The translations under genes and the position numbers were made by a program. A stretch of 64,000 bases of DNA from Burkholderia sp. GAS332 (GTDB lineage Bacteria > Pseudomonadota > Gammaproteobacteria > Burkholderiales > Burkholderiaceae), in the NCBI GenBank assembly GCA_900142905.1, contig FSRV01000003.1:186001-250000 (forward strand). The letters are read 5' to 3'. The notes below the pieces were generated by a model that saw nothing but the letters and a program-made list of their open reading frames with translations, searched no databases and had not been told where the DNA came from. Shown here in pieces: positions 14,828-45,957 of the stretch. Each line of letters starts with the position of its first letter. Position 1 is the stretch's first letter.

Positions 14828-15148
14828 TCAGTATGCGCCGAAGATCCGGTCGAGCGCCGCAAGAATGGCCTCGCGTCGATCTGAAAGGGAACCAATGCAC
14901 TTGCCGAGAGCCTTTAACGGGACCGCGCTCATGGCAGGCGTATCAAGGAAACATTCTTCGCCGTGGACTTCGAAAACAGGAAGCAGATCGGATGGTTTGC
15001 CGGAGAAGCCAAGATGTCGGGCAGGTCGCAGGGGAATCACAATGCGCGTCGGCAAAATACCGACGTGAGTGCTTTGTACGTCGAGCAGGTACGGGGCAAG
15101 TTTGCGCGTCTCAATGTCGGGGTTGGCGTAAAGATCAAATCGGGCCAT
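14828..15148 (-). CDS. ccdB: CcdB family toxin
   Basis: 106 residues. MARFDLYANPD at the start, PYLLDVQSTHV and TRIVIPLRP in the middle, and a C-terminal LDRIFGAY match CcdB, which poisons DNA gyrase. Length is right for the family. The ATG overlaps the antitoxin stop (TAATG), the usual coupling in ccdAB. Confidence 0.88.
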   Translation of the reverse strand: MARFDLYANPDIETRKLAPYLLDVQSTHVGILPTRIVIPLRPARHLGFSGKPSDLLPVFEVHGEECFLDTPAMSAVPLKALGKCIGSLSDRREAILAALDRIFGAY

Positions 15149-15390
15149 TAAAACGTCCTGTATTTCGCGAGCGGAAGCCCGTCGCGATCGACCATCGTCG
15201 TGTAGGCGGTGACCAATTCGGCGTTATCATCGGCCCACCGCCGAGCCTCGACTTCCTGGATTTCTTCGCGTACACCCCGTTCGCTCGCGCGCGAAAGATT
15301 AATGCCAAGCTGTTTGGCGCGCTCCAGCACCTCGGGAGGCAAGGTGACGTTGGTCGATTTGCGCGGTCTAGCTTCGAGTGCTTTGCCCAT
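15148..15390 (-). CDS. ccdA: CcdA family antitoxin
   Basis: 80 residues: a ribbon-helix-helix N-terminus (RKSTNVTLPPEVLERAKQLG) and a C-terminal toxin-binding tail (RRWADDNAELVTAYTTMVDRDG). ATG 15390 is preceded by ggag at 7-bp spacing; an in-frame ATG at 15402 is the alternative. It neutralises the adjacent CcdB and represses the operon. Confidence 0.87.
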   Translation of the reverse strand: MGKALEARPRKSTNVTLPPEVLERAKQLGINLSRASERGVREEIQEVEARRWADDNAELVTAYTTMVDRDGLPLAKYRTF

Positions 15391-15414
15391 GTGCGGCTCC
15401 ATGTTGCATACTAT

Positions 15415-15430
15415 GTGCATTATGCTGCAC
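15415..15430 (-). promoter_or_regulatory. Palindrome before ccdAB, probable CcdA operator
   Basis: GTGCA (15415-15419), six bases, TGCAC (15426-15430), 25 bp before the ccdA start, with a related TTGCATA half site between. Position and symmetry fit ribbon-helix-helix autoregulation. Confidence 0.5.
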
Positions 15431-15598
15431 ATGAACGATGGCTCGCAAGCGTGTCGGCGCCGGTGGATCCCCGAGGAAAGCATTGGCCCGATCAAAGTCC
15501 CCAAGTTTTTTAGAAGGGACGGCTGGATGGCAAATCGCTCGGGAATGGGATTTAATCTAATCAATGTCGGGAGGCTGCGATGCGGAACTACGCAGCGG

Positions 15599-15910
15599 AT
15601 GAGTATTACGCTAACCAATGAAATGGCGGAATTTGTCCGCGACAAGGTTGCTCGTGGCGACTACGCATCCCACAGCGAAGTGCTTCGAGATGCGCTCCGG
15701 GTAACTCGTGAGCGGGATCGGGCAGTCGAAGCATGGTTGCGCGATCAGGTTGTTCCTGCTGCGCAAGCACTTCGGGACTGCCCCGAGAGAGCGCTGTCTG
15801 CCGGTCAGCTGCGCGCTGAGCTCATGAAATCCCGGTACGTGGCGGATAAATTGGAAGGTTCAGTTCGCGCCCGAAGCCCTCGGCCAGTTGCGGGCACTCG
15901 TCAGAGCTGA
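15599..15910 (+). pseudogene. ParD-type antitoxin, damaged
   Basis: MSITLTNEMAEFV...GDYASHSEVLRDALR matches the ribbon-helix-helix of ParD. The family often has a short leader (RTTQQ-like) before this Met; here the RTTQR leader is split from its own ATG (15580, with gggagg before it) by one extra A, so only the inner ATG at 15599 can start the antitoxin frame. The C-terminus runs past its normal stop into the ParE region. It may still make an antitoxin-like protein, but the pair is decayed. Confidence 0.6.
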
Positions 15911-16312: not shown

Positions 16313-17362
16313 CTACGTAGTAGGGTCCGGAAGATCGGGGCGTAATTCCGCCTCAATCTGGTCAATGGTGGGCAAGTCCGTCTCAAATGACTCCGGTACC
16401 TCGCGCATGAGCTGATACTCGGACACACCCATCGGCTTGGCTATGCCGCGCAGCGCGTATTCCGCCACGAGCCGGTTCTTTTCCTTGCACAGCAGCAGAC
16501 CGATGGTCGGCTGGTCCTCCTGCGTCTTGACCTGCGCATCGACAGCAGAAAGGTAGAAGTTCAACTGGCCCGCGTACTCGGGCTTGAACGGCGTCGTTTT
16601 CAGTTCGACAACGACATAGCAACGCAGCTTGAGATGGTAGAAAAGCAAATCGAGAAAAAACTCGTCACCACCTACCTCCAGCCGGTACTGGCGCCCTACG
16701 AAAGCGAACCCTGCACCCAGTTCGAGCAGGAAACGCGTGATGTGCTGGGTGAGCGCACGCTCGATGTCACGCTCCTGTGCGCTCTCAGTCAGGCCAAGGA
16801 AGTCGAAGATATAAGGATCCTTGAGTACGTCGCGTGCGAGATCCGATTGCGCTGGCGGCAGCCGGTCGGCGAAATTTGTCACGGCCTTGCCGGTACGAGC
16901 ATGGGCGGCCGTCTCGATCTGCATGGTCAGCACACTGCGTGACCAGCCGTGCTCAAGCGATTTTTCCGCATACCAAAGCCGCTGCGCGGGGTTGTCCAGC
17001 TTGTCGAGCAGCGTCACTACGTGCGACCACGGTAATTGTGCAACGGGTTGTTGCACAAATTCCGGCTGCGGAAAGGCTTGCGCGAGCGCACGCATGTACT
17101 TGAGGTTGCGCGGCGAGAAGCCGCGCATGTCGGGAAATGCCGCCTTGAGATCGCGCGCCAGCCGGTCGACAACGCCCGCGCCCCAGCCTTGTTTCTGCTG
17201 CCTGTCAATAATGTCGCGGCCGATCTGCCAGTACAGTGCGACCAGTTCGCGATTGACGCTGGCCGCCGCGCGCTGCCGCGCGCGCTCGACGCGCTGCTTG
17301 AGTTCGGCAAGCCAGTGACGATAGTCCTCAGCCCACACGGGAGTATCCGGATCTTTGGTCAT
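16313..17362 (-). CDS. YhcG-type (DUF1016) PD-(D/E)XK nuclease
   Basis: 349 residues. N-terminal DUF1016_N region (ELVALYWQIGRDIIDRQQKQGWG, then FSPRNLKYMRAL and AQLPWSHVVTLLDKL), C-terminal nuclease fold with FFLDLLFYHLKLRCYVVVELK, which supplies the D...ExK active site, and GQLNFYLSAVD after it. Members are often found in defence islands and beside restriction genes. Single gene, its own AT-rich promoter region with TATAAT at 17459-17464 (minus strand). Confidence 0.88.
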   Translation of the reverse strand: MTKDPDTPVWAEDYRHWLAELKQRVERARQRAAASVNRELVALYWQIGRDIIDRQQKQGWGAGVVDRLARDLKAAFPDMRGFSPRNLKYMRALAQAFPQPEFVQQPVAQLPWSHVVTLLDKLDNPAQRLWYAEKSLEHGWSRSVLTMQIETAAHARTGKAVTNFADRLPPAQSDLARDVLKDPYIFDFLGLTESAQERDIERALTQHITRFLLELGAGFAFVGRQYRLEVGGDEFFLDLLFYHLKLRCYVVVELKTTPFKPEYAGQLNFYLSAVDAQVKTQEDQPTIGLLLCKEKNRLVAEYALRGIAKPMGVSEYQLMREVPESFETDLPTIDQIEAELRPDLPDPTT

Positions 17363-17510: not shown

Positions 17511-17788
17511 TAGATGCTTCCCGTTGAGCTTTCCCACTCGATCATCAACAGACCGCTCAAACCCGCGTGGTTAAAGGATTTGGCCTGGATCGACATGGTC
17601 CTTTATCGTCACTTTTACCGTCAGAAGCGCGCACCTTTTTGCGGGTGCGGAAGATGGAGCACTTTGTGGGGGAGCAACGTTTTCGACACCATGATCAATC
17701 AGCTCTCAGGATATCGGAGAAATCTCCCACCGTCAGCCAAAAGCGCGCGCAAGCGACCACCATCCGGAAGCTAATACTTGGAGGGGGT
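17511..17788. other. Gap between yhcG and the Argonaute operon, no gene seen
   Basis: About 280 bp. A rightward frame of 86 codons (17514-17774) has no recognisable family and no ribosome site. Probably the 3' flank of the operon that ends at 17789; no clear terminator hairpin was seen. Confidence 0.4.
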
Positions 17789-18238
17789 CTAAGGATGCTC
17801 CCCCGATTGCTCTGCTTCCCAAAATCGCTGCATCGCTTCGAATGCTTTTCGCTCAACGTCCTGCATTCGTGTCAAAGCATGAGGCTCCGGCACGGGCCGG
17901 AAGCTTGAGGAAAGCTGTTCAACGTCTCGTCGAGCGGCCAGCCCTGCCTGCAGTAAAGGCTGCCACTGTCGATCCCAGTGGCCGACGGGCCGGGAATCCG
18001 GCGACGACACCTTGCGTAGCGCTTGATGCATGACTGCTTCGGCGGTCCGCGTTGGGTCATCCCATTTCACCGGAATGCTCCAACCAGCGTCCCGGACGCC
18101 ACCGGTGCTTCGGGCGTCTGGGCCAACCATAGCTACAGGTGCGCCCGCGACGGTTCCAAACCCGAAGAGCTTGTGATCAATGCGGTCACCTTCCTCAAGT
18201 GGACAGTTCGAGCTACTCACTGGGTCTCCTCTCTGCAT
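17789..18238 (-). CDS. Accessory protein of the Argonaute operon, beta-barrel-like N-terminus, unknown function
   Basis: 149 residues, last gene of the leftward operon, 33 bp after the nuclease gene. N-terminal EEGDRIDHKLFGFGTVAGAP resembles the Tudor/PcrA-C-like modules that begin with a GDRVxHxxFGxGTV motif. The C-terminal half is helical and charged (VERKAFEAMQRFWEAEQ). I do not recognise a named family; a nucleic-acid or polymerase-contacting role is only a guess from the fold motif. Confidence 0.65.
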   Translation of the reverse strand: MQRGDPVSSSNCPLEEGDRIDHKLFGFGTVAGAPVAMVGPDARSTGGVRDAGWSIPVKWDDPTRTAEAVMHQALRKVSSPDSRPVGHWDRQWQPLLQAGLAARRDVEQLSSSFRPVPEPHALTRMQDVERKAFEAMQRFWEAEQSGEHP

Positions 18239-18271
18239 GCAATTACCTCATTGGTTTCGTATGGGCGCTGC

Positions 18272-19486
18272 TCAAACCATAAACGCTGGTTGAGCGATAA
18301 CGACCGGACTAATCACGTCTCGAATCTCACTAAGTCCCGCAATGAGCAGGTCGTATTGCTCAGTGCGTCGTCCTTGATCCCAGATGATCGGAAGCACTTT
18401 GCGATAGGGGCTGCCTCGCTTCAGGTAAAGACTGACATCTTCACCAATCTGCGAAATCAGGTCTTGCGGCGTGCTTTTTTTCCGCCAGTATTTGACCTCG
18501 ATCACTAGGTGCAACGACGGGACCACCAAGTCTGCCCGTGGCTTCTTTTGTCCCACCGACGCGAGCCACTCCTCATCGCGCAGGTCGGGCAACACCGGCG
18601 CGAGCACCGCACACAGAAGATTCTGAAAGTGGTATTCGTTTTCAACCGCCCACTTTTGCGCGGTCGAGTTCGGTGTCTTCTTCTGATCGTCCCAGGTCCA
18701 CCGACGCAACCCGGATGGGAGCCGGCGAAGCAGCAGCCCGACATCGTCGAGGCTCGGTGCGCGCAGATCAATCTGCGCCGCCCCCTGGGCGAGATAGTGA
18801 AACGCCGCCAAGTCCAAGGCTGCCTGTTCGGGGTCGTCATAAACAACCAACTTGATGCGGCTAAGCAACCGCGACGCAAAGTCGTTATCGACCGCCGGCA
18901 AAGCGTCTGCCAAGCGACGTGCGACGTAGATAGCTGCGCACGCGGTAGCCGGCACCACTTTCAGTTCGCCGTCCAATCCCACCTCGGACCGAATCTTGAT
19001 CATGGATAGCAGTTCATGGCGCCAGCCGACTTCCGCCGGCAACAGCGGCTGTAGCCTTGCATAGAGCGACGCGAACCATGTGCCGAATTTCGGCCATCGC
19101 ATATCATCGGCAGTCGCCGACAAACCAACCAGAACGCCGGTATGCGCTAACGGTTGCATCAGGCTGACGAGAGCCGTCTGAGATTCGCCGCTGCGCCCCA
19201 TCAACCAGTCCACGCCCTGCGCAAATGAATCGCAGCATGCATCACTCAAGGTCGGATCGATGCTCAGCAGGAACCCCAAAGCCGCAACGGCATGAATCGA
19301 CCGGCCGCCGCCGGAGATCTCTTCGCACAGCTCCCGCGCCATCGCTGCGCTCTGCTGGGTGGACAACCCTTCGGCGAGCACCCAGTGATAAAAGGCGATC
19401 GACAGCGGGCTCGCAGTCATCAGTGTCTCGGCCTGGCCCGCTACTGCGCGCAGCGCCTCGTGCAACATCGGGTTGCCGGCGCTCAC
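18272..19486 (-). CDS. Large protein with C-terminal PD-(D/E)XK nuclease domain, Argonaute partner
   Basis: 404 residues. GTG 19486 is chosen because its GTGA overlaps the Argonaute stop; a longer frame from 19537 would overlap by 54 bp. Residues 1-275 are mostly helical with no family I recognise. Residues 280-380 have the nuclease core: Glu in VENEYHFQNLL (E284), Asp in KPRADLVVP (D319), and ExK in LVIEVKYW (E330, K332), then an SLYLKRGSPYRKVLPIIWD strand. The complete active site makes it the best candidate nuclease effector of the system, working with a dead Argonaute as guide holder (inference). Confidence 0.8.
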   Translation of the reverse strand: MSAGNPMLHEALRAVAGQAETLMTASPLSIAFYHWVLAEGLSTQQSAAMARELCEEISGGGRSIHAVAALGFLLSIDPTLSDACCDSFAQGVDWLMGRSGESQTALVSLMQPLAHTGVLVGLSATADDMRWPKFGTWFASLYARLQPLLPAEVGWRHELLSMIKIRSEVGLDGELKVVPATACAAIYVARRLADALPAVDNDFASRLLSRIKLVVYDDPEQAALDLAAFHYLAQGAAQIDLRAPSLDDVGLLLRRLPSGLRRWTWDDQKKTPNSTAQKWAVENEYHFQNLLCAVLAPVLPDLRDEEWLASVGQKKPRADLVVPSLHLVIEVKYWRKKSTPQDLISQIGEDVSLYLKRGSPYRKVLPIIWDQGRRTEQYDLLIAGLSEIRDVISPVVIAQPAFMV

Positions 19487-21738
19487 AGAAACCACCGCGT
19501 TGTGCCGATCTTGCCCAGCATCACACTCGGACTCCACCGGCTACCCAAACGGTCAAGCCGCCCTAAGAGGCCCGCGACAAGGTCGGAGTAGTAGATGGTG
19601 ACCGGCATCGCCGCCGGCAGGAAGCTGCGCCAAGAATGGTTCGAAAACCAATACACCTGCTTGGTTAGATAGATGATGTCCGTGAACGTCGAATCGCGAT
19701 GCAGGCTTAGCAGCAGCGGTTTGGGCAACCCATCCGTCGGACGCTTGAGCTGCTGCGGCCCCGTCAACGTCAACAACGTCTCGTTGTGTCCGAGTTCCGC
19801 AAAGAGGCCTCGAACTGGCGTCTTCTCTCCCCTGCCCTTGGTCCCGACGGAGTCATCGTCGAACAGCAGATACGGATGGTCCTGTTTGACATGCAGGAAG
19901 GCGAACTGCAGATCGAATTCAGAGAACTCCTTCAACGCCGCCTTGACCGATTCGACCTCCGTATTGCGCATCGGCTTGAACGCATGAACGATCACACGTA
20001 CTGAATCGCCCTTGATCCAGTTCATCTCGTTGCGCACGCGCTGAAGGGTTGCCTGCAATGATTCGGTCAGGGCTTCGCCGTACTTCGACATGGGTACGGC
20101 ATTCGACAGATTCGACAGCAGATAGCCGCCGTCGCCGCGAAAGACGCTGGTAATGCCCACGATTCTTTCTTTCCTGGAAAAGCGGGATTCGCCAATCGCA
20201 GCGCTGCCCAGGCCGATGACCACCTCATGTGCGATGCCCTTGTCCGACTTGATCAGCCACGGAATGCCGCCGAGCTTGGCGTAGACCGCAAGGGCAAGAT
20301 TGCTGAGGGTATAGGCGAGACTGGCCGGCGCCATCGAGAACGTCTCGAACGCGACGAACTGCGTGGGGATTTGATTGGAGAGAAACGCCGCCTTGGCCAC
20401 CAGATACGGATTCTTCTGCGGCGTCAACTGTCGCGAGTCCCGCTCGGTCTGCACCAAGGCCAGATGCCAGGGCGCGCCGTCGGCGCCCATCCGAACTGCT
20501 TTGGAAGCAGCCGCATGGTAGGCGTCGGCCGTGAAGGCATCCGCCTCCACGAAGGTCAGGGTGATGTCCTGCAGTCCGTAAATGCCGAGAAATCCTCGCC
20601 CGAATGGCAATGACTTACCATCGACCGATAAACCATCTCGAAACTTTCGAAGGAAAAGTTCAAATTGGCCACGCCGCGCGCGGTCGCAGATCACACAGAC
20701 ATTCGGTCGCGTGGGCGTGAAGACGTGCCGGCTGTAGGGACCGAACTTGCTTAGACCGACCGCTGCACGCGACTCCGACTTGAGCGTGCCGGCGTCGAAA
20801 ACATAGGTCGGCGTCGTGGCCTCCGTGAAACGAGGAAAGTTCGGCGCATCTTTCTCGCTCAGCAGGTTGCCGATGCCAACGCTGAGACCCTCCTGCAGTT
20901 CGATCTCGCCGAGGCCACGAAGCCAGTCCGAAATGCGGGCAATGTGCTCCATGCGCGCGCGCCCTCTGCTGTTCTCGAACACGATCTCATCGATCTTGCC
21001 CAACACCCTGCCCGACGCGTTCCGCGTGAAGTGCTGCAGCAGGTGCCGAAGATTCTCAGGTGAGGCCTCCAGATACAGCTCATCGAGTGGAAGTAACTCC
21101 TCCACATTTTGAAAACGCTCGGACATGCGTGCGTGGCCGTCCGTGATGGCGCCGACTCGACCCACCAGCCGGCGATAAGGCAGCATGCGCACATCTTCGA
21201 TCGGCACCAAGCGCTCAACCGTCAACCCATCCAGTCGAACGCCCTGCTCATGCAAGACGGCAAGGCTTGTTGCGCAGGTCTTCTGTATCTCGATGTCCCA
21301 CAAAAGACCGAGTGGTTCTGAGTCTGGCAGCTTTAATGACCGGATCGCGATCAAGACGCGCGACTGCAGATGAAGATGCCTGTCGGCCTCAATGAAGCCC
21401 GTCGGCAAGGTGCGCCCTACCGTGGTAATCGGGTTATAGCGCGCCACCAATCGCCGATTGGAGCTAAGCAAGGTCACGAGACGCTGCTCGAGCAGCGGAC
21501 GGACGAGCGAGGCATGCTCGGCCACCGAAACAACGTTCTCCTCGCTAATGGGCGCGGCGCCCAAGGCAAGCGGCAGCGCCACGATCTGATCCGAGCGACG
21601 GGTCACGGCGTAGTGCGTGCGGTACTCGTCACGCAGATCTCGGAACTGCTGCGCGTCCTTGAAAGGCAAGGTCTGCAGCCGAATGGCATCACCGCGCACC
21701 CACAGCGGCGTGAAATTGAGCTGCAGCTGTCGTCCCAT
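19483..21738 (-). CDS. Long prokaryotic Argonaute (PIWI), catalytic residues lost
   Basis: 751 residues from ATG 21738 (after aaggatgtaactcct; 5 bp after the protease stop). The N-terminal 370 residues fit N, L1, PAZ-like and L2 regions. The MID pocket has the 5'-phosphate binding set Y445, K449 (NPYLVAK), Q460 (IPTQ) and K488 (VYAKLGG). PIWI follows: VVIGLGSAAIGES where active pAgos have Asp (G510 area), RNTE where the RDGE-type Asp would be, then the C-terminal YYSDLVAGLL motif. The DEDX tetrad is thus missing, as in long-B pAgos, which bind guide and target without cutting. Function likely is guided sensing that triggers partner proteins (inference). Confidence 0.87.
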   Translation of the reverse strand: MGRQLQLNFTPLWVRGDAIRLQTLPFKDAQQFRDLRDEYRTHYAVTRRSDQIVALPLALGAAPISEENVVSVAEHASLVRPLLEQRLVTLLSSNRRLVARYNPITTVGRTLPTGFIEADRHLHLQSRVLIAIRSLKLPDSEPLGLLWDIEIQKTCATSLAVLHEQGVRLDGLTVERLVPIEDVRMLPYRRLVGRVGAITDGHARMSERFQNVEELLPLDELYLEASPENLRHLLQHFTRNASGRVLGKIDEIVFENSRGRARMEHIARISDWLRGLGEIELQEGLSVGIGNLLSEKDAPNFPRFTEATTPTYVFDAGTLKSESRAAVGLSKFGPYSRHVFTPTRPNVCVICDRARRGQFELFLRKFRDGLSVDGKSLPFGRGFLGIYGLQDITLTFVEADAFTADAYHAAASKAVRMGADGAPWHLALVQTERDSRQLTPQKNPYLVAKAAFLSNQIPTQFVAFETFSMAPASLAYTLSNLALAVYAKLGGIPWLIKSDKGIAHEVVIGLGSAAIGESRFSRKERIVGITSVFRGDGGYLLSNLSNAVPMSKYGEALTESLQATLQRVRNEMNWIKGDSVRVIVHAFKPMRNTEVESVKAALKEFSEFDLQFAFLHVKQDHPYLLFDDDSVGTKGRGEKTPVRGLFAELGHNETLLTLTGPQQLKRPTDGLPKPLLLSLHRDSTFTDIIYLTKQVYWFSNHSWRSFLPAAMPVTIYYSDLVAGLLGRLDRLGSRWSPSVMLGKIGTTRWFL

Positions 21739-21743
21739 AGGAG

Positions 21744-22568
21744 TTACATCCTTTTGTTGTGCCGGACCAGCATCCGGATTTTTCTGATTGATGTACCGAT
21801 AAACCAGGTCCAACGCATCCGCCAGGACGGCTTTCCGAAACCGTTGTCGATGCCACCAACTAGCGCTTCAATGATCTGGCGGTTCTTGCCAGGGTAGATG
21901 CCGTTGTCGTGCAACATGACCAGCAGCGGCTCGATCGAGATGGCGCTCGAATAGCCGGTCTCGGCATCCTTGCCCTTCATCACGAGCGCTTCAACGAGCA
22001 CTCCCAGCAAAAAGCCATATTCACTCAACACGGGGCCACCGCTAAAACCCCCCCTGGCAGGACACGAAATGATGAAATGCGGGTGCGGCCCGCTGTATTT
22101 GTCCACCACTGCATTGACCTCGCCCTCCGAGGCCAGGAGAACGGCTCTCTGCGAGAACGGAATCGGCGGATATCCCATGAGCAGCACTTTCGACAGCACC
22201 AACTCATCGCCGAGCCAGTCGTCCAAGTGCCCACCGATTTCGATATGGTCCGTCTGTACAAAGCCTTTCGGCGAGCCAAAAATCGTCGTCTTGTACAGGT
22301 AGTGCGACAGATCCAAATCGGTCTTCATTAAGGCCAGGTCGATCCGATCGTCGTTGTTGAAGATCACCGATCGCACGTTTAGCGGCTCTGAAAGCTGTTC
22401 GGACACCACTTCCTGCACGACACCATCCCGCAACACATGGGCCGCCGTGACCAGCCAGCCGTCACCGATGTGGAAGGCAGTGCCGGTACTCAAATCACCG
22501 GCCGGCGTCTTCACCGTGACACGTACCAGCGCTGGCTTGTAACTTTGGAATAGTGCCAGCAGGTCCAT
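21744..22568 (-). CDS. Trypsin-like (S1 fold) serine protease in the Argonaute operon
   Basis: 274 residues. Full catalytic triad: His44 in WLVTAAHVL, Asp77 in DRIDLALMK, Ser176 in RGGFSGGPV. No signal peptide, so it acts in the cytoplasm, unlike DegP-type proteases, and no PDZ domain follows; the last 60 residues are basic. ATG 22568 is chosen as it starts the homology and lies 17 bp after the previous stop. Possible roles: effector that degrades host proteins or activator that cleaves a partner of the operon. Confidence 0.85.
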   Translation of the reverse strand: MDLLALFQSYKPALVRVTVKTPAGDLSTGTAFHIGDGWLVTAAHVLRDGVVQEVVSEQLSEPLNVRSVIFNNDDRIDLALMKTDLDLSHYLYKTTIFGSPKGFVQTDHIEIGGHLDDWLGDELVLSKVLLMGYPPIPFSQRAVLLASEGEVNAVVDKYSGPHPHFIISCPARGGFSGGPVLSEYGFLLGVLVEALVMKGKDAETGYSSAISIEPLLVMLHDNGIYPGKNRQIIEALVGGIDNGFGKPSWRMRWTWFIGTSIRKIRMLVRHNKRM

Positions 22569-22585
22569 AGCCGTCAGCCTGATGG

Positions 22586-23725
22586 TTACGGGATCAAGGT
22601 CAGCAGAACTTGCTGAGCGACGCCACTGGTGGCGCCGGGGAACCATCCCGGCATGGCCACGTTGAAGCCGCCGGCCCCGACCGGCCGATACGGATCGGTC
22701 TTGATATCGATCTCGTAGTAACGCAGCTGGTTGCCAAACTTCCCCAGCGCGACGCCCGTCACGGAGGCAGCACCTGCTTTGCGCAAGAAGGCTGCGGCAA
22801 CGCCAAAAGACACGCCATAGGTCGTGCAGTCATCCACAACGATCACATGCTTCCCGACCAATCGGCTGCTCTGTTTATAGAACGGGTTCAGATGAATGGT
22901 CAGAATTTGGCCGGTCGGATCGGTTCGATCACCGCCGCCGCCAGCCGAGCGCTTCGGCGAAGATGTGTGTCGAATGAACAGGGGCTCGTCCCGCTTGGAA
23001 AACCGAACGCGGGAAACCGTTGTCCGTAAGCGATGCGTGAAATCGCTGAGGATCTCGTCATCGTCGTTGGCGCTTTTCGACGACGGATAGACACCCCATA
23101 CCAAGCCATCCAGTTGATTCACTTTTTCCATCAGCAGCGAACGCGTCGTGACGGCCAGCAATGCATTCAGTCGTCCTCCGCCACCTTTGACGGTGGCGGT
23201 CAGTCGCTGCGCGAACAGTTGCTGCGTGACGCCTTTGCCAAGGCCGGACAAGTCGCTGAGCGCACGCACGCGATAGCGGCCAGCGTCGCCCGCATACCAC
23301 CACTGTCCTGACCAGCCGGCCGTCAAGTCGATGATCTCTTGCAACTGCGCAGCGTTGTCAATGCGAATGCCCAGGGACGCAACCTGCTGTGCTGCCGACC
23401 ACCCGGCCGCAACGAGAATCGCACCGCCGTTCTTTCCCATCTGGACGTCTTCGTCCTTTGCCGCGAGAACCAGCGCATCGAATGGATTGAGTGCGAACTT
23501 CTTGGCGTTCTGCGACACGATCTCGCCCGACTGCCGCCCTCGACTTTGCAGGAGCTGAACGCCGCTGGTTCCAAACGTCCCGTTGAACCAGGCCGGTTCC
23601 GCATGATTGGAAATCAAGCCCACAGGATTGCCCGCCGCCTTGGCGTTAATCAGTACCTGAGCCAGCTGCGGATCGGGTTTTCCGTTCCGCAAGACTGCAT
23701 CCGGAGATGTCATGACAATCAGCAT
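22586..23725 (-). CDS. HAD-like domain fused to a phosphoribosyltransferase domain
   Basis: 379 residues. N-terminal 130 residues look like a HAD fold: strand MLIVMTSPDAVL, then PVGLISNH (motif II-like Ser) and AAGWSAAQQVASLGI, but the motif I DxD is absent, so phosphatase activity is doubtful. The C-terminal domain has the PRPP loop VIVVDDCTTYGVSFG (residues 294-308) of type I phosphoribosyltransferases. HAD and PRTase pairs are known in ter-type stress operons, where nucleoside-like metabolites are proposed. Lies 24 bp after the ComF-like gene. Confidence 0.7.
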   Translation of the reverse strand: MLIVMTSPDAVLRNGKPDPQLAQVLINAKAAGNPVGLISNHAEPAWFNGTFGTSGVQLLQSRGRQSGEIVSQNAKKFALNPFDALVLAAKDEDVQMGKNGGAILVAAGWSAAQQVASLGIRIDNAAQLQEIIDLTAGWSGQWWYAGDAGRYRVRALSDLSGLGKGVTQQLFAQRLTATVKGGGGRLNALLAVTTRSLLMEKVNQLDGLVWGVYPSSKSANDDDEILSDFTHRLRTTVSRVRFSKRDEPLFIRHTSSPKRSAGGGGDRTDPTGQILTIHLNPFYKQSSRLVGKHVIVVDDCTTYGVSFGVAAAFLRKAGAASVTGVALGKFGNQLRYYEIDIKTDPYRPVGAGGFNVAMPGWFPGATSGVAQQVLLTLIP

Positions 23726-23749
23726 GTGGCGTGTCCCCTAGTCCTGGTA

Positions 23750-24388
23750 TTAGATGCTGTCAAAATCCAAATCGACCGACTTGGGCGCCCGCCGTGCGAT
23801 AAACAGCCCGACGATGCGCGCCTCGGGGAATCGCCGCTCCAACACTTGCTTCACTGCCTTGAAATGGCACCCCGTGGTCAGCACATCGTCCACGACAAAG
23901 ATGGTCTGCGGCGCCGGCTCGGCCAAGCTCTCGTCGAGCCGATAGTTGGCCACCAATTCGTCGGGTGTCGGGCGCGTGTCCGATAGATGGGCCGCCGGCA
24001 GTGACTGCCGTTGGACGACCAGTTCGCGGATATCGGTGTGACGCCCCCTGCAAACGGCCTGCAGCAGTTGCAGCATGCGGTCGTCGTATTGCGGGTCGCT
24101 CTTCGCCTTCGACGGAGGAATCGGTACGAAAGTGATTTCGGCGTCGCCCTTGATCGCAGCGCGAAAGATCGCAGCCGCCTGCAGGATCGCGCGCTCTTTG
24201 TATTGCCACTGCGCGGTCCCGCGCTTGTCCACGGACTTCTTGAAGTTGTGGATCAGCTGGTTGGTCTCGCTGTAGGCATGCCCTTCGCCCGCAGTGTATT
24301 CACCTGCGTAGTAGCAAATGTCTTGCGCTTCCAGATAGTGATGATCCGGAAGCGTCAGGGCATCGACCTTGAGAACGCGCTTAGCCAA
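23750..24388 (-). CDS. ComF-like phosphoribosyltransferase
   Basis: 212 residues, the size of ComFC (24 kDa). CYYAGEYTAGEGHAYSETNQLIHNFK at the N-terminus, VPIPPSKAKSDPQYDDRM in the middle and the PRPP loop IFVVDDVLTTGCHF at residues 163-176. The N-terminal Cys-rich zinc ribbon of ComFC is not seen. It overlaps the DprA-like gene by 8 bp; ComF and DprA are both single-stranded DNA uptake proteins in competent bacteria, so their joint use here is notable. Confidence 0.75.
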   Translation of the reverse strand: MAKRVLKVDALTLPDHHYLEAQDICYYAGEYTAGEGHAYSETNQLIHNFKKSVDKRGTAQWQYKERAILQAAAIFRAAIKGDAEITFVPIPPSKAKSDPQYDDRMLQLLQAVCRGRHTDIRELVVQRQSLPAAHLSDTRPTPDELVANYRLDESLAEPAPQTIFVVDDVLTTGCHFKAVKQVLERRFPEARIVGLFIARRAPKSVDLDFDSI

Positions 24389-25298
24389 GAGCTGCCCTAA
24401 TGTCGTCGATGCCGGTTACGCGAATGGCTCCTTGAGCCTGAAACCGAGCCGGCCAGGTCAGCTTTGGATTGCGAAAGCAGTTGTCGAGGATGAACAACTT
24501 GCGACCCTGCTGAAGCGCCGCCCGTGCCTGCGCCAAAGTGCCCGACGTATCGCTGGCTTCTACGATGACGGTTGCCTGCGCCAGCGCTGACATCGTGGCG
24601 TTACGTTCCGGGAAGAACAGGCGATTGCTACGGTAGTCCTGCGTCGAGTAGCGCCAAATCGGCACTTGGCTCACGAGCAAGAACTTCTCGGCAATCAGGT
24701 CTTGCAGTGCCTTGTTCTCGGGCGGGTAATACTCGGTAATCGGCGTACCGATCACTGCGATCGTACTGCCGCCATTGTCAATTGCCGTGGTATGTGCCGC
24801 GGTGTCCACGCCTTTCGCCAGGCCGGAGACGATGGTGTAGCCATCCTTGACTAGCAGCTTCACCAGCCTGCGAGTTCTACGCAGACCGTCCTCGGAGACG
24901 CTGCGGGAGCCAACGATCGCGATCCGTTTGGGCGAGTCGATCAGATCCCACCACCCTCGGTAGTACAGGAGCTCGACGGGATGCGCGGCATCGCGCAACC
25001 GATCGGGGTAGTCCTCCGAACCATGCACACGCACACCAAAATCATGAATATTCGCGTGCGCAATCTTGTCTCGCACCTGCAGCAGCGCGGCATCAATCTC
25101 CTCTTCCGAAACCAGCTCGGAGGGCATCGCATTCGGACTGTCACGGAAACAGTCCGCGATCGTCTTGAAAGTCGCTTTTTGATGCGCCCACAACGCTTCG
25201 TATGCCGCCATCTCCCGCGACGGCGAAATCGGCTTGTCGCTCAGCACTGCGTCAATGTCATTCATCGGTTCACTGACCTCCATCGGCGCGCCGATCAA
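24381..25298 (-). CDS. DprA/Smf-like protein (SLOG superfamily Rossmann fold)
   Basis: 305 residues. Core motifs of DprA: RIAIVGSRSVSEDGLRR (about residue 125), TIVSGLAKGVDTAAH, then FFPERNATMSALAQATVIVEASDTSGTLAQA (about 228). N-terminal 95 residues are helical. DprA binds single-stranded DNA and loads RecA; SLOG relatives bind nucleotide-like ligands in conflict systems. ATG overlaps the previous stop as ATGA. In this operon it could be the nucleic-acid or nucleotide sensor (inference). It is not the housekeeping dprA, which is normally next to topA or def/fmt. Confidence 0.82.
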   Translation of the reverse strand: MIGAPMEVSEPMNDIDAVLSDKPISPSREMAAYEALWAHQKATFKTIADCFRDSPNAMPSELVSEEEIDAALLQVRDKIAHANIHDFGVRVHGSEDYPDRLRDAAHPVELLYYRGWWDLIDSPKRIAIVGSRSVSEDGLRRTRRLVKLLVKDGYTIVSGLAKGVDTAAHTTAIDNGGSTIAVIGTPITEYYPPENKALQDLIAEKFLLVSQVPIWRYSTQDYRSNRLFFPERNATMSALAQATVIVEASDTSGTLAQARAALQQGRKLFILDNCFRNPKLTWPARFQAQGAIRVTGIDDIRAALG

Positions 25299-26500
25299 CG
25301 CTTCGGCGTAAATCTAAACGGCACGACATTGCCTTCCGTGGCAACAGGCGCATCTGAGCTGGGCACTGAACGCAAACGAGCCAGTTGTACAATCTTGGGC
25401 TTGCCCTGAAAGTATCCTTCCGATAAACCCGCCAGCATCTCAATGTCATGAGCCGCCAAGCCAATGTGCCTGGGGATCGAGTCGAGGGGCATCACGTTTT
25501 CCTCGACAAGAAGATCGATCGTTCGACGTAGCAGGCGCGGCCGCTCTGGCGACCTATCGCCATCGCCCGGCTCGGACTTGGCGCCCCAACGTGCGGACCG
25601 TCGTTTGAAAAGTGACTGCGCCGCCTCTTCATCGAGAATCTTCAACGCACGCAAACGCATCACGATCGCAGCGACGGAAACACCCCATCGGCGTTTGAGC
25701 AAGAGAAGATCGTCCAGCGTCACCGGCGTGCGAACCTCACTCGCGAATGTTTCCGCCGGCAGCAGGAACGCACCCGCGAAGCGATGGGCTTGCTGTTCCA
25801 ACTGCTTATGGCGATCACGCTCGGTCGGTCGGGGAATAAACCGATGCAGGATCAGGTGGCCGAGTTCATGCGCCAAGTCGAAACGACTTCGATAGCCGTT
25901 ATCCTTGTCGGCCGAGAGCAAAACCAGCGGCCGTCCCAGCGCATCGCTCCATGCCGACAGGCCCTCGATCTGCGAAATACCAGTTTCCTCGCGGATCAGG
26001 ATTACGCCAGCGCCTTCAATAGCCAGCGCCAGGTCCGGCACCGCAGTACGGCCGATACGCCAAAGATCGCGGCATTCACTCGCTGCCAGTTCAATTTCGT
26101 CAGGCGTGATCTCATCAGGCTCCTTAAACTGCCGGCTCGGCAAATTCAATGCTGGATAGTCCACGAACTCCGACAACGCGAGCGCGACGTCCTGCGCCCA
26201 CTCCATGCGCGCTTCCAGCATCGCACGTGCCGCCACGTGGGCGGACGCGTTGCTGCGAAACAGCGGCAGCGACACTTTGGCGGAGGGTGCCCGGGTGAAC
26301 CATTCGGGCGTGACGTTGACCACGCCGGCAAGGCGCTCCAAGGTTTCACGTTCGGGCGCCTGATTGCCCGATCGCCATTTGCTGACCGTCGCGGGCGACA
26401 CGCCGACCAGCGAGGCCAGTTGCGCTTGGCTCAAACGCCTCGCAGCAAGGATCTGACTGAGGCGCTCACTCTCAAAGCCTTGAATACCACCGCGACTCAT
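25295..26500 (-). CDS. XRE-ImmA/IrrE fusion: HTH regulator with Zn metalloprotease domain
   Basis: 401 residues. N-terminal XRE helix-turn-helix at residues 8-62 (RLSQAQLASLVGVSPATVSKW), ImmA/IrrE zinc protease with HELGH at 211-215, and FAGAFLLPAE about 30 residues later that gives the third ligand Glu. ImmA cleaves phage-type repressors after DNA damage; IrrE cleaves DdrO. Here both functions are in one chain, so it may repress the operon and be inactivated by self-cleavage or cleave another regulator (inference). ATGA overlaps on both sides show tight coupling. Confidence 0.87.
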   Translation of the reverse strand: MSRGGIQGFESERLSQILAARRLSQAQLASLVGVSPATVSKWRSGNQAPERETLERLAGVVNVTPEWFTRAPSAKVSLPLFRSNASAHVAARAMLEARMEWAQDVALALSEFVDYPALNLPSRQFKEPDEITPDEIELAASECRDLWRIGRTAVPDLALAIEGAGVILIREETGISQIEGLSAWSDALGRPLVLLSADKDNGYRSRFDLAHELGHLILHRFIPRPTERDRHKQLEQQAHRFAGAFLLPAETFASEVRTPVTLDDLLLLKRRWGVSVAAIVMRLRALKILDEEAAQSLFKRRSARWGAKSEPGDGDRSPERPRLLRRTIDLLVEENVMPLDSIPRHIGLAAHDIEMLAGLSEGYFQGKPKIVQLARLRSVPSSDAPVATEGNVVPFRFTPKR

Positions 26501-27144
26501 GGCGCGCCACCCTCGTTGCCCTGCTTCTTGAGTTTCTTGAGTTTGGGTTTGGCCAAATCGTCTTGTGCCGCAGGCGTTTGCTCGTACCGCTGCAAGAACG
26601 CGTTCAGCGGCTCCTTGAACAGCCAGCCCTGCATCTCGCGGTCAGGAACCGCGATCTGGACCGACACGGGCGAGTCTGGCTGGATATGCAGGGAGCCCGA
26701 GAAGCATGCCACGAAGAACGCGACCGCCTCGGAGGGTGTGGAATATTGATCGAACAATTCCGGCTGCACCAACGGTTCGATAGCCTTGTTGGCAAATGAC
26801 ATCTGGCGGCGCGTGTGACTACGTCGGCCATTGATCCAGAAACCATCCGGAATGTTGAACCTGGCAAGCGTGAAGATCCCTGCCCGGCCGCTGACGATGC
26901 CATTACCGCGAATAGCGGTCGGCGACGCCTCCCCCATTTCCAACGCACGGTGAAAGGCTTCGTTCATATGAAAATGCCGTAGCTGACCCACCACATGAGG
27001 AAGATGGCCCTCGTCCATGCCTTTGGCAGCTGCATGGGCGCGCTGGGCACCAGCTATTAGGGCTTCATCGATGCCCATAACCAAACCACGCGGGATGTGT
27101 TGCAACAACAATTCAGGAATCGAATCTTTCGTTGATTCAGACAT
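26497..27144 (-). CDS. First gene of the Argonaute operon, unknown family
   Basis: 215 residues, no signal peptide or membrane segment. It has a mixed alpha/beta body (GLVMGIDEALIAGAQRAHAAAKG, HFHMNEAFHRALEMGEASPTAIRGN) and a Lys-rich tail (KPKLKKLKKQGNEGG). I do not recognise the family. The stop is in an ATGA overlap with the XRE-ImmA/IrrE gene, so the two are likely made as partners; it could be the substrate of the metalloprotease (inference). Confidence 0.7.
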   Translation of the reverse strand: MSESTKDSIPELLLQHIPRGLVMGIDEALIAGAQRAHAAAKGMDEGHLPHVVGQLRHFHMNEAFHRALEMGEASPTAIRGNGIVSGRAGIFTLARFNIPDGFWINGRRSHTRRQMSFANKAIEPLVQPELFDQYSTPSEAVAFFVACFSGSLHIQPDSPVSVQIAVPDREMQGWLFKEPLNAFLQRYEQTPAAQDDLAKPKLKKLKKQGNEGGAP

Positions 27145-27207
27145 AGGCGCCCCTACGGTTTGATTTCGCTTTCCGGGATTTTACATCGATTTTATTTCGT
27201 TTAGAAG

Positions 27208-27220
27208 AGAAATCATTTCT
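27208..27220 (-). promoter_or_regulatory. Palindrome in the operon promoter, candidate XRE operator
   Basis: AGAAAT-C-ATTTCT, a perfect 6+1+6 palindrome, 64-76 bp before the first ATG. AT-rich DNA with two TAAAAT -10-like boxes on the minus strand lies between it and the start. Confidence 0.5.
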
Positions 27221-44090: not shown

Positions 44091-45957
44091 ATCGGGATAG
44101 GGGCAGGCCTCGCGACCCGACCCCTCCCACACCACCGTGCGTACGGGTCCGAACACGGCGGTTCGGATCAGTTGGCCGGCTATTTGCGCAACGATGGAAG
44201 GCCGAGAGAGCCAAGATAGCGGTTGGTGAGGGCACGTTGCAGGGCGGGACTGTTACTCAGTCGCCATGCAGCGTGCGGGGAACCGACCGTTTGGGCGGCC
44301 AGATCCCGATCGACGCCGCGGGCCGTCAGTTCCCTGAACCGTTTGGAGCTGTTCTTCCACTGTTTCCAGAAGACGAAGCGAACACGGCGTCGTACCCACT
44401 CATCCAGCCGTTGTAATGTGCTGGGCGTCTCACAGAAGCCGAAGTAGCCGCGCCACCCTGTACGGTAGCGTGTCAGCCGCTCCATCAACTGCTCAATGCT
44501 GATCCCTCGTGCGCGTTGGGTCAGTTTCCGGATTCGTTCCTTGAAGCGGGCTAGTGCCTTGGGCGCAATGCGCCGTTTGACCTGATCCCGGTTCGAGAAG
44601 CTAAATCCCAGAAACTTCCGCATGTGTGGCCGCGCGACCGCGCTCTTCGCCTTATTGACCTTCAGCTTCAGCTTGCCGGTGAGGAAGGCCTTCAGCCCAG
44701 CCATCACCCGTTGGCCAGCGCGTTCGCTGCGTACGTAGACGTTACAGTCGTCGGCGTACCTCACGAACCGCAGTCCGCGCCGCTCAAGCTCCCGGTCGAG
44801 ATCGTCGAGCATCAGATTGGATAACAACGGTGACAGGGGACCACCCTGGGGCGTCCCTTCGTCCGTTGCGCCAACCAGCCCGTTCTCCAGCACGCCCGCC
44901 GTCAGGAAGGAGCGGATCAGCTTCAACATTCGTTTGTCGCTGACCCGCTTTGCCACCCGGCTCATCAGGATATCGTGGCTCACGCGATCGAAGAATTTCT
45001 CGAGGTCCAAATCTACAATCCAGCGATGTCCCGCCTGAATGTAGTCTTGCGCGCGCGTCACGGCCTGATGCGCCGAGCGTCCCGGACGGAAGCCGTAACT
45101 GGTATCCGAGAACGTTGGGTCCCACTGCCTTTGCAGCACCTGCAATACCGCCTGCTGGACGAACCGGTCAAGCGCAGAGGGAATGCCGAGCTTACGCACG
45201 CCACCTCCATCCGGCTTGGGTATCTCGACCCGTCTCACAGGTTGTGGCCTGTAGGTTCCTTCGAGCAATGAGGCCCGTATCGACGGCCAATGCTCACGCA
45301 GGTACGCCGGTCGTGCCTGAACCGTCATACCGTCCACGCCCGGCGCACCCTTGTTCGCCTTCACACGCTTCAACGCCCGTTGCAGGTTTCCCCGCTCACA
45401 GACTTCTTCCATCAGTCGGTCACAAGCCGACGGGCTTTCAGTTTCGGGGTCCGCCGCCATAGGTTCAGCCCCTCGGGCGGCAGTCATCCGGGCTTCACCC
45501 AGACCTCCGCCGTCAAGGACGCGTCGCGTTTTCTGCTGCTCTCCCATGTCGAGTTCTCCGGCTTACTCGCCGCTCCTCTCCGTTTGGGCCGTCAGGCGTC
45601 GCCGCCCTACTATGCCCGCTGCTGACTCCTGCACGGCGATCAGCAACCCTTGCAAGTTGCTCAGTCCTGAGTCCAGGACACCGGGCAGGCCTCCCGAGGT
45701 AAGCACAACCGCCTTCGCCACACGCCTGCCAGATCTACCACCCCGGGCCTTGATGGTTATGGACTTCGCGATCATCGGCTCGCTCGTCCGGCCGGGTAGG
45801 CCTCATATCTGGTTTCTGTTCGTCAGGTCGTGGCTTTGCTCCACGCTTCCTTCAGACCCCGCCTCGCGACGACGCCCTTGCGTTTCACTAGCCCTTCACC
45901 ACCATCAGGTTGGGCAGGGGACTTGCACCCCCAAGCTGTTGCGCATGCTCGGCGCAC
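44091..45957 (-). mobile_element. Group II intron (class C type), about 1.87 kb
   Basis: Minus strand. 5' end GTGCGCCGAGC at 45957, right after a terminator hairpin and T run (45959-45984). The maturase lies in domain IV. Domain V is at about 44105-44160 (GAACCGCCGTG...CACGGTGGTGTGGGAGGG) and a short domain VI ends near ...CCTATCCCGAT at 44091. Insertion behind a Rho-independent terminator is the class C habit. Both ends look intact, so it may be mobile. Confidence 0.85.
44180..45547 (-). CDS. ltrA: Group II intron reverse transcriptase/maturase
   Basis: 455 residues. RT motifs in order: GAPGVDGMTV, RPVRRVEIPKPDGGGVRKLGIP-type block 2, SYGFRPGRSAHQAV, VDLDLEKFFDRV, GTPQGGPLSPLLSN, and the active-site RYADDCNVYV. 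Maturase X domain after (RRIAPKALARFKERIRKLTQR, LTRYRTGWRGYFGFCETP). Start has ggag 8 bases before. No C-terminal endonuclease domain, as in class C. Complete length. Confidence 0.93.
   Translation of the reverse strand: MGEQQKTRRVLDGGGLGEARMTAARGAEPMAADPETESPSACDRLMEEVCERGNLQRALKRVKANKGAPGVDGMTVQARPAYLREHWPSIRASLLEGTYRPQPVRRVEIPKPDGGGVRKLGIPSALDRFVQQAVLQVLQRQWDPTFSDTSYGFRPGRSAHQAVTRAQDYIQAGHRWIVDLDLEKFFDRVSHDILMSRVAKRVSDKRMLKLIRSFLTAGVLENGLVGATDEGTPQGGPLSPLLSNLMLDDLDRELERRGLRFVRYADDCNVYVRSERAGQRVMAGLKAFLTGKLKLKVNKAKSAVARPHMRKFLGFSFSNRDQVKRRIAPKALARFKERIRKLTQRARGISIEQLMERLTRYRTGWRGYFGFCETPSTLQRLDEWVRRRVRFVFWKQWKNSSKRFRELTARGVDRDLAAQTVGSPHAAWRLSNSPALQRALTNRYLGSLGLPSLRK

Follow-up and report, generated by a model that had tools for sequence, protein, structure and literature searches.

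Nine collinear genes shared by two genera

The window analyzed here, a 64-kb stretch of the 10.4 Mb, three-contig genome of Burkholderia sp. GAS332 (positions 186001–250000 of contig C3, 804,682 bases), contains a leftward run of nine open frames, all on the minus strand, which includes the genes of a prokaryotic Argonaute (pAgo), a nuclease, a protease, and two phosphoribosyltransferases (PRTases; g1, first, to g9, last; Table 1). With the chosen start codons, the junctions from g1 to g9 measure −4, −4, −8, +24, +17, +5, +5, and +33 bp, and 426 bp separate g9 from the next minus-strand gene, which is YhcG-like. No terminator-like site was found on the minus strand between any two of the nine genes; one weak match lies within g8. 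Pfam recognizes XRE with Peptidase_M78, DprA, PRTase (in two proteins), Trypsin_2, Piwi, and DpnII-MboI families across the cassette, and no family in g1 or g9. The coordinates, gene order, tight packing, and domain assignments of the original prediction, which had been made from the sequence alone, are all borne out by these data.

Table 1. Genes of the cassette and its leader, in window coordinates
Feature	Description	Length	Position	Strand	Basis
leader	possible promoter/operator		27145..27212	-	two AA[AG]CGAAA repeats around TAAAAT
g1	RmrT-like protein	215 aa	26497..27144	-	PADLOC RmrT 5.8e-23
g2	RmrA-like XRE-M78 fusion	401 aa	25295..26500	-	PADLOC RmrA 3.7e-127
g3	ShosA-like DprA-family protein	305 aa	24381..25298	-	PF02481 1.7e-55; PADLOC ShosA 4.9e-100
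g4	short ShosT-type PRTase	212 aa	23750..24388	-	PADLOC ShosT 4.5e-50
g5	degenerate-HAD + PRTase protein	379 aa	22586..23725	-	PADLOC ShosT 8.2e-51
g6	trypsin-like serine protease	274 aa	21744..22568	-	Trypsin_2 6.9e-14; triad motifs
g7	long-B pAgo	751 aa	19483..21738	-	PADLOC pAgo_II 5.1e-245; EcAgo 2.5e-107
g8	bAgaN-type PD-(D/E)XK nuclease		18272..19468, frame open to 19537	-	PF18742 4.5e-41; Aga_Helical-REase 1.7e-120
g9	small barrel + two helices	~143 aa	17789..18220, frame open to 18238	-	84 relatives; model pLDDT 87.5

All nine genes occur in the same order in a metagenome-assembled genome (MAG) of Ralstonia, another genus of the same family (G165; locus L030, 21 kb). The 64-kb window and this locus can be aligned over one block only, 17531–27212 (9,691 columns, 89.3% identity), and the flanks are unrelated. 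The block comprises the nine-gene set and little else; strand, overlaps, and short gaps are kept in both copies, and all nine frames are open in both. The ratios of nonsynonymous to synonymous substitution (dN/dS) for g1 to g9 are 0.084, 0.030, 0.058, 0.054, 0.057, 0.105, 0.082, 0.105, and 0.103, the values of g8 and g9 being computed from shortened starts. One shared block, open frames, and dN/dS values of 0.030–0.105 point to one cassette under purifying selection, in line with the single operon of the original prediction. Chance adjacency was considered and rejected on the grounds of this block-wise sharing and of the selection on all nine genes. As support for one system, the prediction had also asked for at least five of the nine genes in distant genomes. 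What recurred was the complete set, at 85.1–97.5% protein identity, in a single further genus, which belongs to the same family, and not in any distant genome.

The upstream edge of the shared block (27212) falls at the leader. Here, two repeats (27195–27202 and 27164–27171, 31 bp apart) flank the TAAAAT element (27178–27183), and in the Ralstonia leader these motifs recur with unchanged spacing relative to g1. This arrangement in both copies would suit one repressed promoter. The other end of the block is marked by TTCCCACTCGATCAT (window 17531–17545), the reverse complement of which stands at the same end in the Ralstonia MAG (G165:C11, about 46437). The window contains a single copy, and a longer pattern is present in the genome as one exact copy and one copy with two mismatches. 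The sequence resembles a gene-end attachment site and may tentatively be read as one.

The cassette is rare in its family. A search of 299 family genomes with g5 produced matches in 19, with full-length matches only in the window genome and the Ralstonia MAG. The same two genomes are the only ones of 398 with a Piwi-family match, as found with a model that is weak on short pAgos (one discussed below falls under its cut-off), and the only ones of 279 with a whole g9; one further genome carries a 39-residue piece of it. In the Ralstonia MAG the cassette adjoins the conjugation genes TrbL, VirB8, and TrbI, plus an AbiEii gene. Transfer of the cassette is suggested by these conjugation genes, by flanks that are unrelated, by its rarity within the family, and by protein identity: the cassette proteins are 85.1–97.5% identical, as against 84.8% for the 3′ part of rpoB (1,143 residues) of the same two genomes, where the start of rpoC (387 residues) reaches 89.1%.

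Known relatives of the individual modules

The g7–g8 pair corresponds to the published BPAN type: a long-B pAgo with a bAgaN-type nuclease encoded directly downstream. The pAgo_II model covers residues 30–776 of the 776-aa g7 frame, and the nearest solved relative is EcAgo of PDB entry 23wq, followed by 6d95, 5awh, and 6d8a, which we take to be RsAgo. The PIWI domain of g7 may lack a catalytic aspartate, as read against the motifs of such domains. The g8 protein matches EcbAgaN of 23wq (3.1e-35) and contains the D...ExK motif; its start is uncertain, since the frame is open from a GTG at 19537 and the first ATG lies at 19468. These comparisons support the original prediction of a long pAgo, probably without catalytic activity, together with a putative nuclease effector. 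EcAgo–EcbAgaN (Song et al. 2023, PMC10620215) shares pAgo class, pAgo-upstream order, and nuclease family with g7–g8. According to that report, EcAgo cleaved none of the tested substrates, and BPAN recognizes DNA via an RNA guide, which turns on the nuclease, so that DNA is degraded and the cell is killed; removal of invading plasmids is also reported (PMC10620215). Section 6 of the same source describes BPAN as simple operons of two to three genes, whereas seven extra genes stand in the run described here, and its main text contains neither "DprA" nor "phosphoribosyl". The listed pAgo relatives include proteins P0001–P0029, at 70–96% identity, whereas no pAgo relative was found among viral contigs in either pAgo scan.

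The g3–g5 genes resemble ShosTA (PDB 8zvb–8zvd, 9vzo, 9w2p, 9w2q), in which a DprA-like antitoxin is paired with a PRTase toxin. The g3 protein matches solved ShosA (9vzo, 1.1e-17) and, more strongly, ordinary DprA (3uqz, 5.6e-31). At 1e-30, 324 of 369 class genomes have DprA-like genes that match the PADLOC ShosA model, so that ShosA counts per genome are not obtainable with this model; matches of at least 1e-90 strength came from only four genomes, the window's included, among the matches listed. A comparison of the g4 sequence with the PDB gave nothing at E 0.1. Solved ShosT was found (4.3e-12) with a profile built from g5 together with 31 relatives, and the AlphaFold model of g5, with a mean predicted local distance difference test (pLDDT) value of 84.1, matches ShosT best (8zvd, template modeling scores 0.70/0.65), followed by HAD phosphatases. 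Residues S7 and P8 are invariant in all 32 g5 sequences (MTSPDAVL in the window), at a position where a HAD-PRTase of Rhizobium (L022) has FDLDDTL. In our reading of these sequences, the HAD domain of g5 is probably dead.

Both g4 and g5 qualify as ShosT-type PRTases adjacent to ShosA: g3 and g4 make up a ShosA–PRTase pair, and g5 shares the ShosT fold. In contrast to the two-gene, single-PRTase organization of ShosTA, two PRTase genes follow ShosA here, one short and without HAD, one with a degenerate HAD, and a serine protease gene adjoins them. Because of the two PRTase genes we refer to g3–g5 as a ShosTA-like dual-PRTase variant rather than plain ShosTA. A DprA–PRTase pair is reported to confer protection from T7 and lambda (PMC9122126), and in the related RqlH/RqlI pair the toxic part is reported to be the PRTase domain of RqlH, which its partner restrains (PMC4670107). 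A nucleotide-type signal made by the PRTases, as put forward in the original prediction, is conjectural.

At the head of the run, two neighboring genes match the PADLOC family pair RmrTA, g1 as RmrT and g2 as RmrA, with a 4-bp overlap between them. In contrast to RmrTA, the gene for RmrA shares another 4 bp with that for ShosA, and the RmrT match is modest; neither Pfam nor NCBIfam matches g1. The g2 protein contains Peptidase_M78 (4.7e-19) with an HELGH motif and HTH_3, an XRE helix-turn-helix (HTH) domain (1.1e-11), and it matches CapP (PDB 7t5t, 2.5e-9). CapH/CapP is a DNA-damage switch that likewise combines HTH and M78 peptidase domains, yet g2 is one fused protein, while CapHP is made up of two genes, with separate PADLOC models for capH and capP. 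Judging from its domains and the CapP match, g2 may be a damage-responsive repressor. Both ShosA/ShosT and RmrT/RmrA are named PADLOC families.

The catalytic motifs of the g6 protease are well conserved in an alignment of 15 sequences (His and Ser motifs in 15, Asp in 14, the exception being L107), and its sequence gave no match in the PDB at the limits used. For g9, the start is probably the GTG at 18220, because most relatives are listed with about 143 aa. Its structural model shows weak likeness to CarD and the Tudor domains of UvrD/PcrA (best E 7.3e-3), and no known structure matched at E 0.001. No relatives of g9 were found in plasmids; the family includes some members from Paraburkholderia, Burkholderia, and Halomonas.

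Modules found apart in other genomes

With profiles built here, 14 loci that contain g5 were compared: the window, nine found by scanning 84,980 species genomes (including L030), three in viral contigs, and one in a plasmid. No match to g5 was found in phage records. In 13 loci g5 is preceded by ShosA; the remaining one (L038) is a broken remnant. Of the 13, three share the layout ShosA–short PRTase–g5 (window, L030, L034), six have HAD-PRTase–ShosA–g5 (L022, L031, L032, L033, L035, L036), and four have ShosA–g5 only (L037, L039, L040, L041). A pAgo occurs in the window, L030, and L036; the other 11 loci are without pAgo within the sequence read. Conversely, the other seven genes are absent from the 16–20 kb read around three of three distant pAgo–nuclease loci (L026, L083, L084). 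ShosA–short PRTase pairs also occur without g5 or pAgo within the sequence read (L080–L082, and by annotation L110–L112). Both patterns had been named in the original prediction as grounds against a single system. Its single pAgo-centered system is only partly supported, and a wholly new, indivisible system was rejected because its modules occur apart.

The trypsin-like protease tends to accompany the Shos genes. A g6-type protease stands beside g5 in six of the 14 loci (window, L030, L022, L031, L032, and, on the other strand, L040), while in L036, L039, and L041 the available sequence stops at or soon after g5. This association suggests that the protease belongs with ShosA/PRTase rather than with the pAgo. 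A search of plasmids with g6 gave 17 records, and we read 15 of these regions (H47 and H48 were left out). ShosA and a ShosT-type PRTase adjoin the protease in four regions (L022, L029, L086, L087); a further three contain a ComF-type PRTase with an HTH "antidote" (L089, L090, L091), three an antidote with an intervening transposase (L088, L103, L104), and two an antidote with a degraded protease (L105, L106). In plasmids of Rhizobium leguminosarum (L086, 5824–10591) and Sinorhizobium alkalisoli (L087, 5854–10601), a protease–ShosA–HAD-PRTase set is convergent with a ShosA–short PRTase pair, which brings the g3, g4, g5-like, and g6 types together at loci that have no pAgo. The protease as a partner of the pAgo was rejected, since it adjoins ShosA/PRTase without pAgo in L022, L029, L031, L032, L040, L086, and L087. 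A protease of Pseudomonas fragi (L028; 1e-51, weaker than the others, and about 2 kb from ShosA) was excluded from the protease counts. The recurring protease–ShosA–PRTase group is named as a system by none of the PADLOC scans.

Some of these regions contain further details. In the Agrobacterium and Rhizobium plasmids L089–L091, the protease is encoded head to head with the ComF-type PRTase and antidote genes, near HTH, M78, and CBASS-type genes; for the 286-aa Agrobacterium antidote Pfam names the C-terminus alone, and a SLOG reading is by eye only. By annotation, NT-25 (L108) carries two such ShosA–PRTase pairs and no protease, and L109 carries one pair with IS66-type genes and a second DprA. 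In Rhizobium sp. Leaf453 (L032, 12130–14690), genes for a PRTase-type effector and a reverse transcriptase, which match type III-A retron models, follow the g5–protease genes.

A second run of pAgo and Shos genes was found in Bordetella petrii (L036, 3601–10840). On one strand, genes for SIR2-APAZ (PADLOC 1e-216) and a short pAgo (5.6e-206; the one under the Piwi cut-off) are followed by HAD-PRTase, ShosA, and g5, and the contig stops soon after the matching part of g5. This pair of SPARSA type (short pAgo with SIR2-APAZ) adjoins Shos genes as the BPAN pair does here, but differs from it in pAgo class and in effector and stands on the opposite side of the Shos genes. L036 and the window thus show Shos genes next to pAgo systems that belong to two classes.

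A predicted layered system and its rivals

We read the nine genes as one collinear cassette and, with a probability of roughly 0.55, as a layered anti-invader system of separable modules under common expression. In this model, a single promoter ahead of g1 would drive all nine genes, with RmrA (g2) as the repressor. The pAgo g7 with RNA guides would recognize plasmid or phage DNA and turn on g8 to degrade DNA, as in BPAN. ShosA (g3) would keep the PRTases g4 and g5 inactive until single-stranded DNA or phage interference frees them, with the protease g6 as a possible trigger or effector of this module. DNA damage would relieve repression by RmrA, raise expression of the operon, and free RmrT (g1). 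A possible role of g9 is binding to RNA polymerase or to DNA. The DprA- and metallopeptidase-controlled toxin modules could thus serve as a fallback to the pAgo–nuclease pair: each module would work alone, and an invader that blocks one layer would meet the next.

Several observations weigh against this model. The coupling of the modules is something that we infer, and the complete nine-gene set is known from two genomes of one family. Scanning for consensus promoters gave no site at the head of the operon and fewer sites than in shuffled sequence (1 versus 3.4). Our RmrT profile detected no RmrT outside the window and L030, and RmrA accompanies g5 in just four of 14 loci (window, L030, L022, L033). 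Three of the 15 plasmid regions hold the protease without ShosA, PRTase, or antidote (L092, L107, and L085, where it lies by a KwaB gene). The Pfam PRTase matches of g4 and g5 and the NCBIfam DprA, AgoRhdb, and spr1629 antitoxin matches fall under their cut-offs. Finally, dS across the cassette (0.29–0.96) is similar to that of rpoB (0.58) and the rpoC start (0.52) of the same two genomes and is therefore no evidence of recent transfer.

The strongest competitor, to which we give roughly half the weight of the layered system, is a plain defence-island stack whose modules moved together once on a mobile element, each useful alone, without shared regulation or cooperation. Every module type is indeed also found apart, the full set is limited to two genomes, and Shedu, a type III-A retron, and SPARSA as neighbors of g5 loci give the look of a defence island; yet a mere stack does not readily account for the way in which both copies preserve strand, overlaps, and short gaps, for selection on all nine genes, or for two pAgo classes adjoining Shos genes independently. 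Considerably less plausible is one integrated pathway, close to the original prediction, in which recognition by the pAgo directly controls the ShosA/PRTases and the protease and every part is needed. Its collinear conservation of nine genes and the second pAgo–Shos run in L036 would fit, and circumstantially a pAgo (P0024, 78%) and a g5 protein (P0125, 82%) may lie on one contig, since both are listed with 3 contigs and a longest one of 9,769 bases. No such coincidence was noticed elsewhere between the pAgo and g5 lists; across the pAgo, g5, and g9 protein lists two longest-contig values are shared (9,769 and 15,957 bases), which is weak evidence. The pathway is harder to reconcile with BPAN standing without Shos in all three distant loci and Shos without pAgo in 11 of 14. 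Very improbable, in our view, is an addiction cassette that stabilizes its mobile element with defence as a side effect: two toxin–antitoxin-type modules and the adjoining conjugation genes in the Ralstonia MAG would suit it, but a pAgo–nuclease pair and a protease are unexpected in a pure addiction module, and BPAN is reported to clear invading plasmids (PMC10620215).

More speculatively, pAgo systems and a Shos module of ShosA and two PRTases, one with a dead HAD, often with the protease, may form a functional partnership, an idea we hold to be rather unlikely. ShosA and the protease would read DNA breakdown by the pAgo effector, or an attack of the invader on that effector, and free the PRTase toxins. 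Such a partnership would have arisen at least twice, with the long-B pAgo–nuclease pair and with the short pAgo–SIR2 pair of B. petrii; ordinary clustering in defence islands may also account for these two cases.

We consider the cassette to be a new conserved combination of known modules, namely published BPAN, ShosA/ShosT, and RmrT/RmrA, with Shos in a dual-PRTase, protease-linked form. Among the titles and abstract openings of the matches listed from open-licence PMC text, we found no description of this gene set or of this Shos variant. Only one paper in the same text combines three of the subjects Argonaute, DprA, PRTase, and defence islands (PMC9122126), in which Argonaute is mentioned once, and the words DprA, phosphoribosyl, protease, and trypsin do not occur in a pAgo review (PMC6279821). 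Cooperation between the modules, if real, would make this the first Argonaute system that we know of with a built-in toxin–antitoxin guard and a protease, and sensing by DprA-type and PRTase proteins during infection would become testable. Should the modules merely be stacked, the nine genes still form a compact natural cassette.

Other mobile or defence-related genes lie in the window. The YhcG/DUF1016 nuclease gene (PADLOC PDC-S02, 16313–17362) follows g9 on the same strand outside the shared block, genes of CcdB and CcdA type for a toxin and antitoxin are found near the cassette at 14828–15645, and a group II intron reverse transcriptase/maturase (RVT_1 and GIIM) is encoded at 44180–45547.

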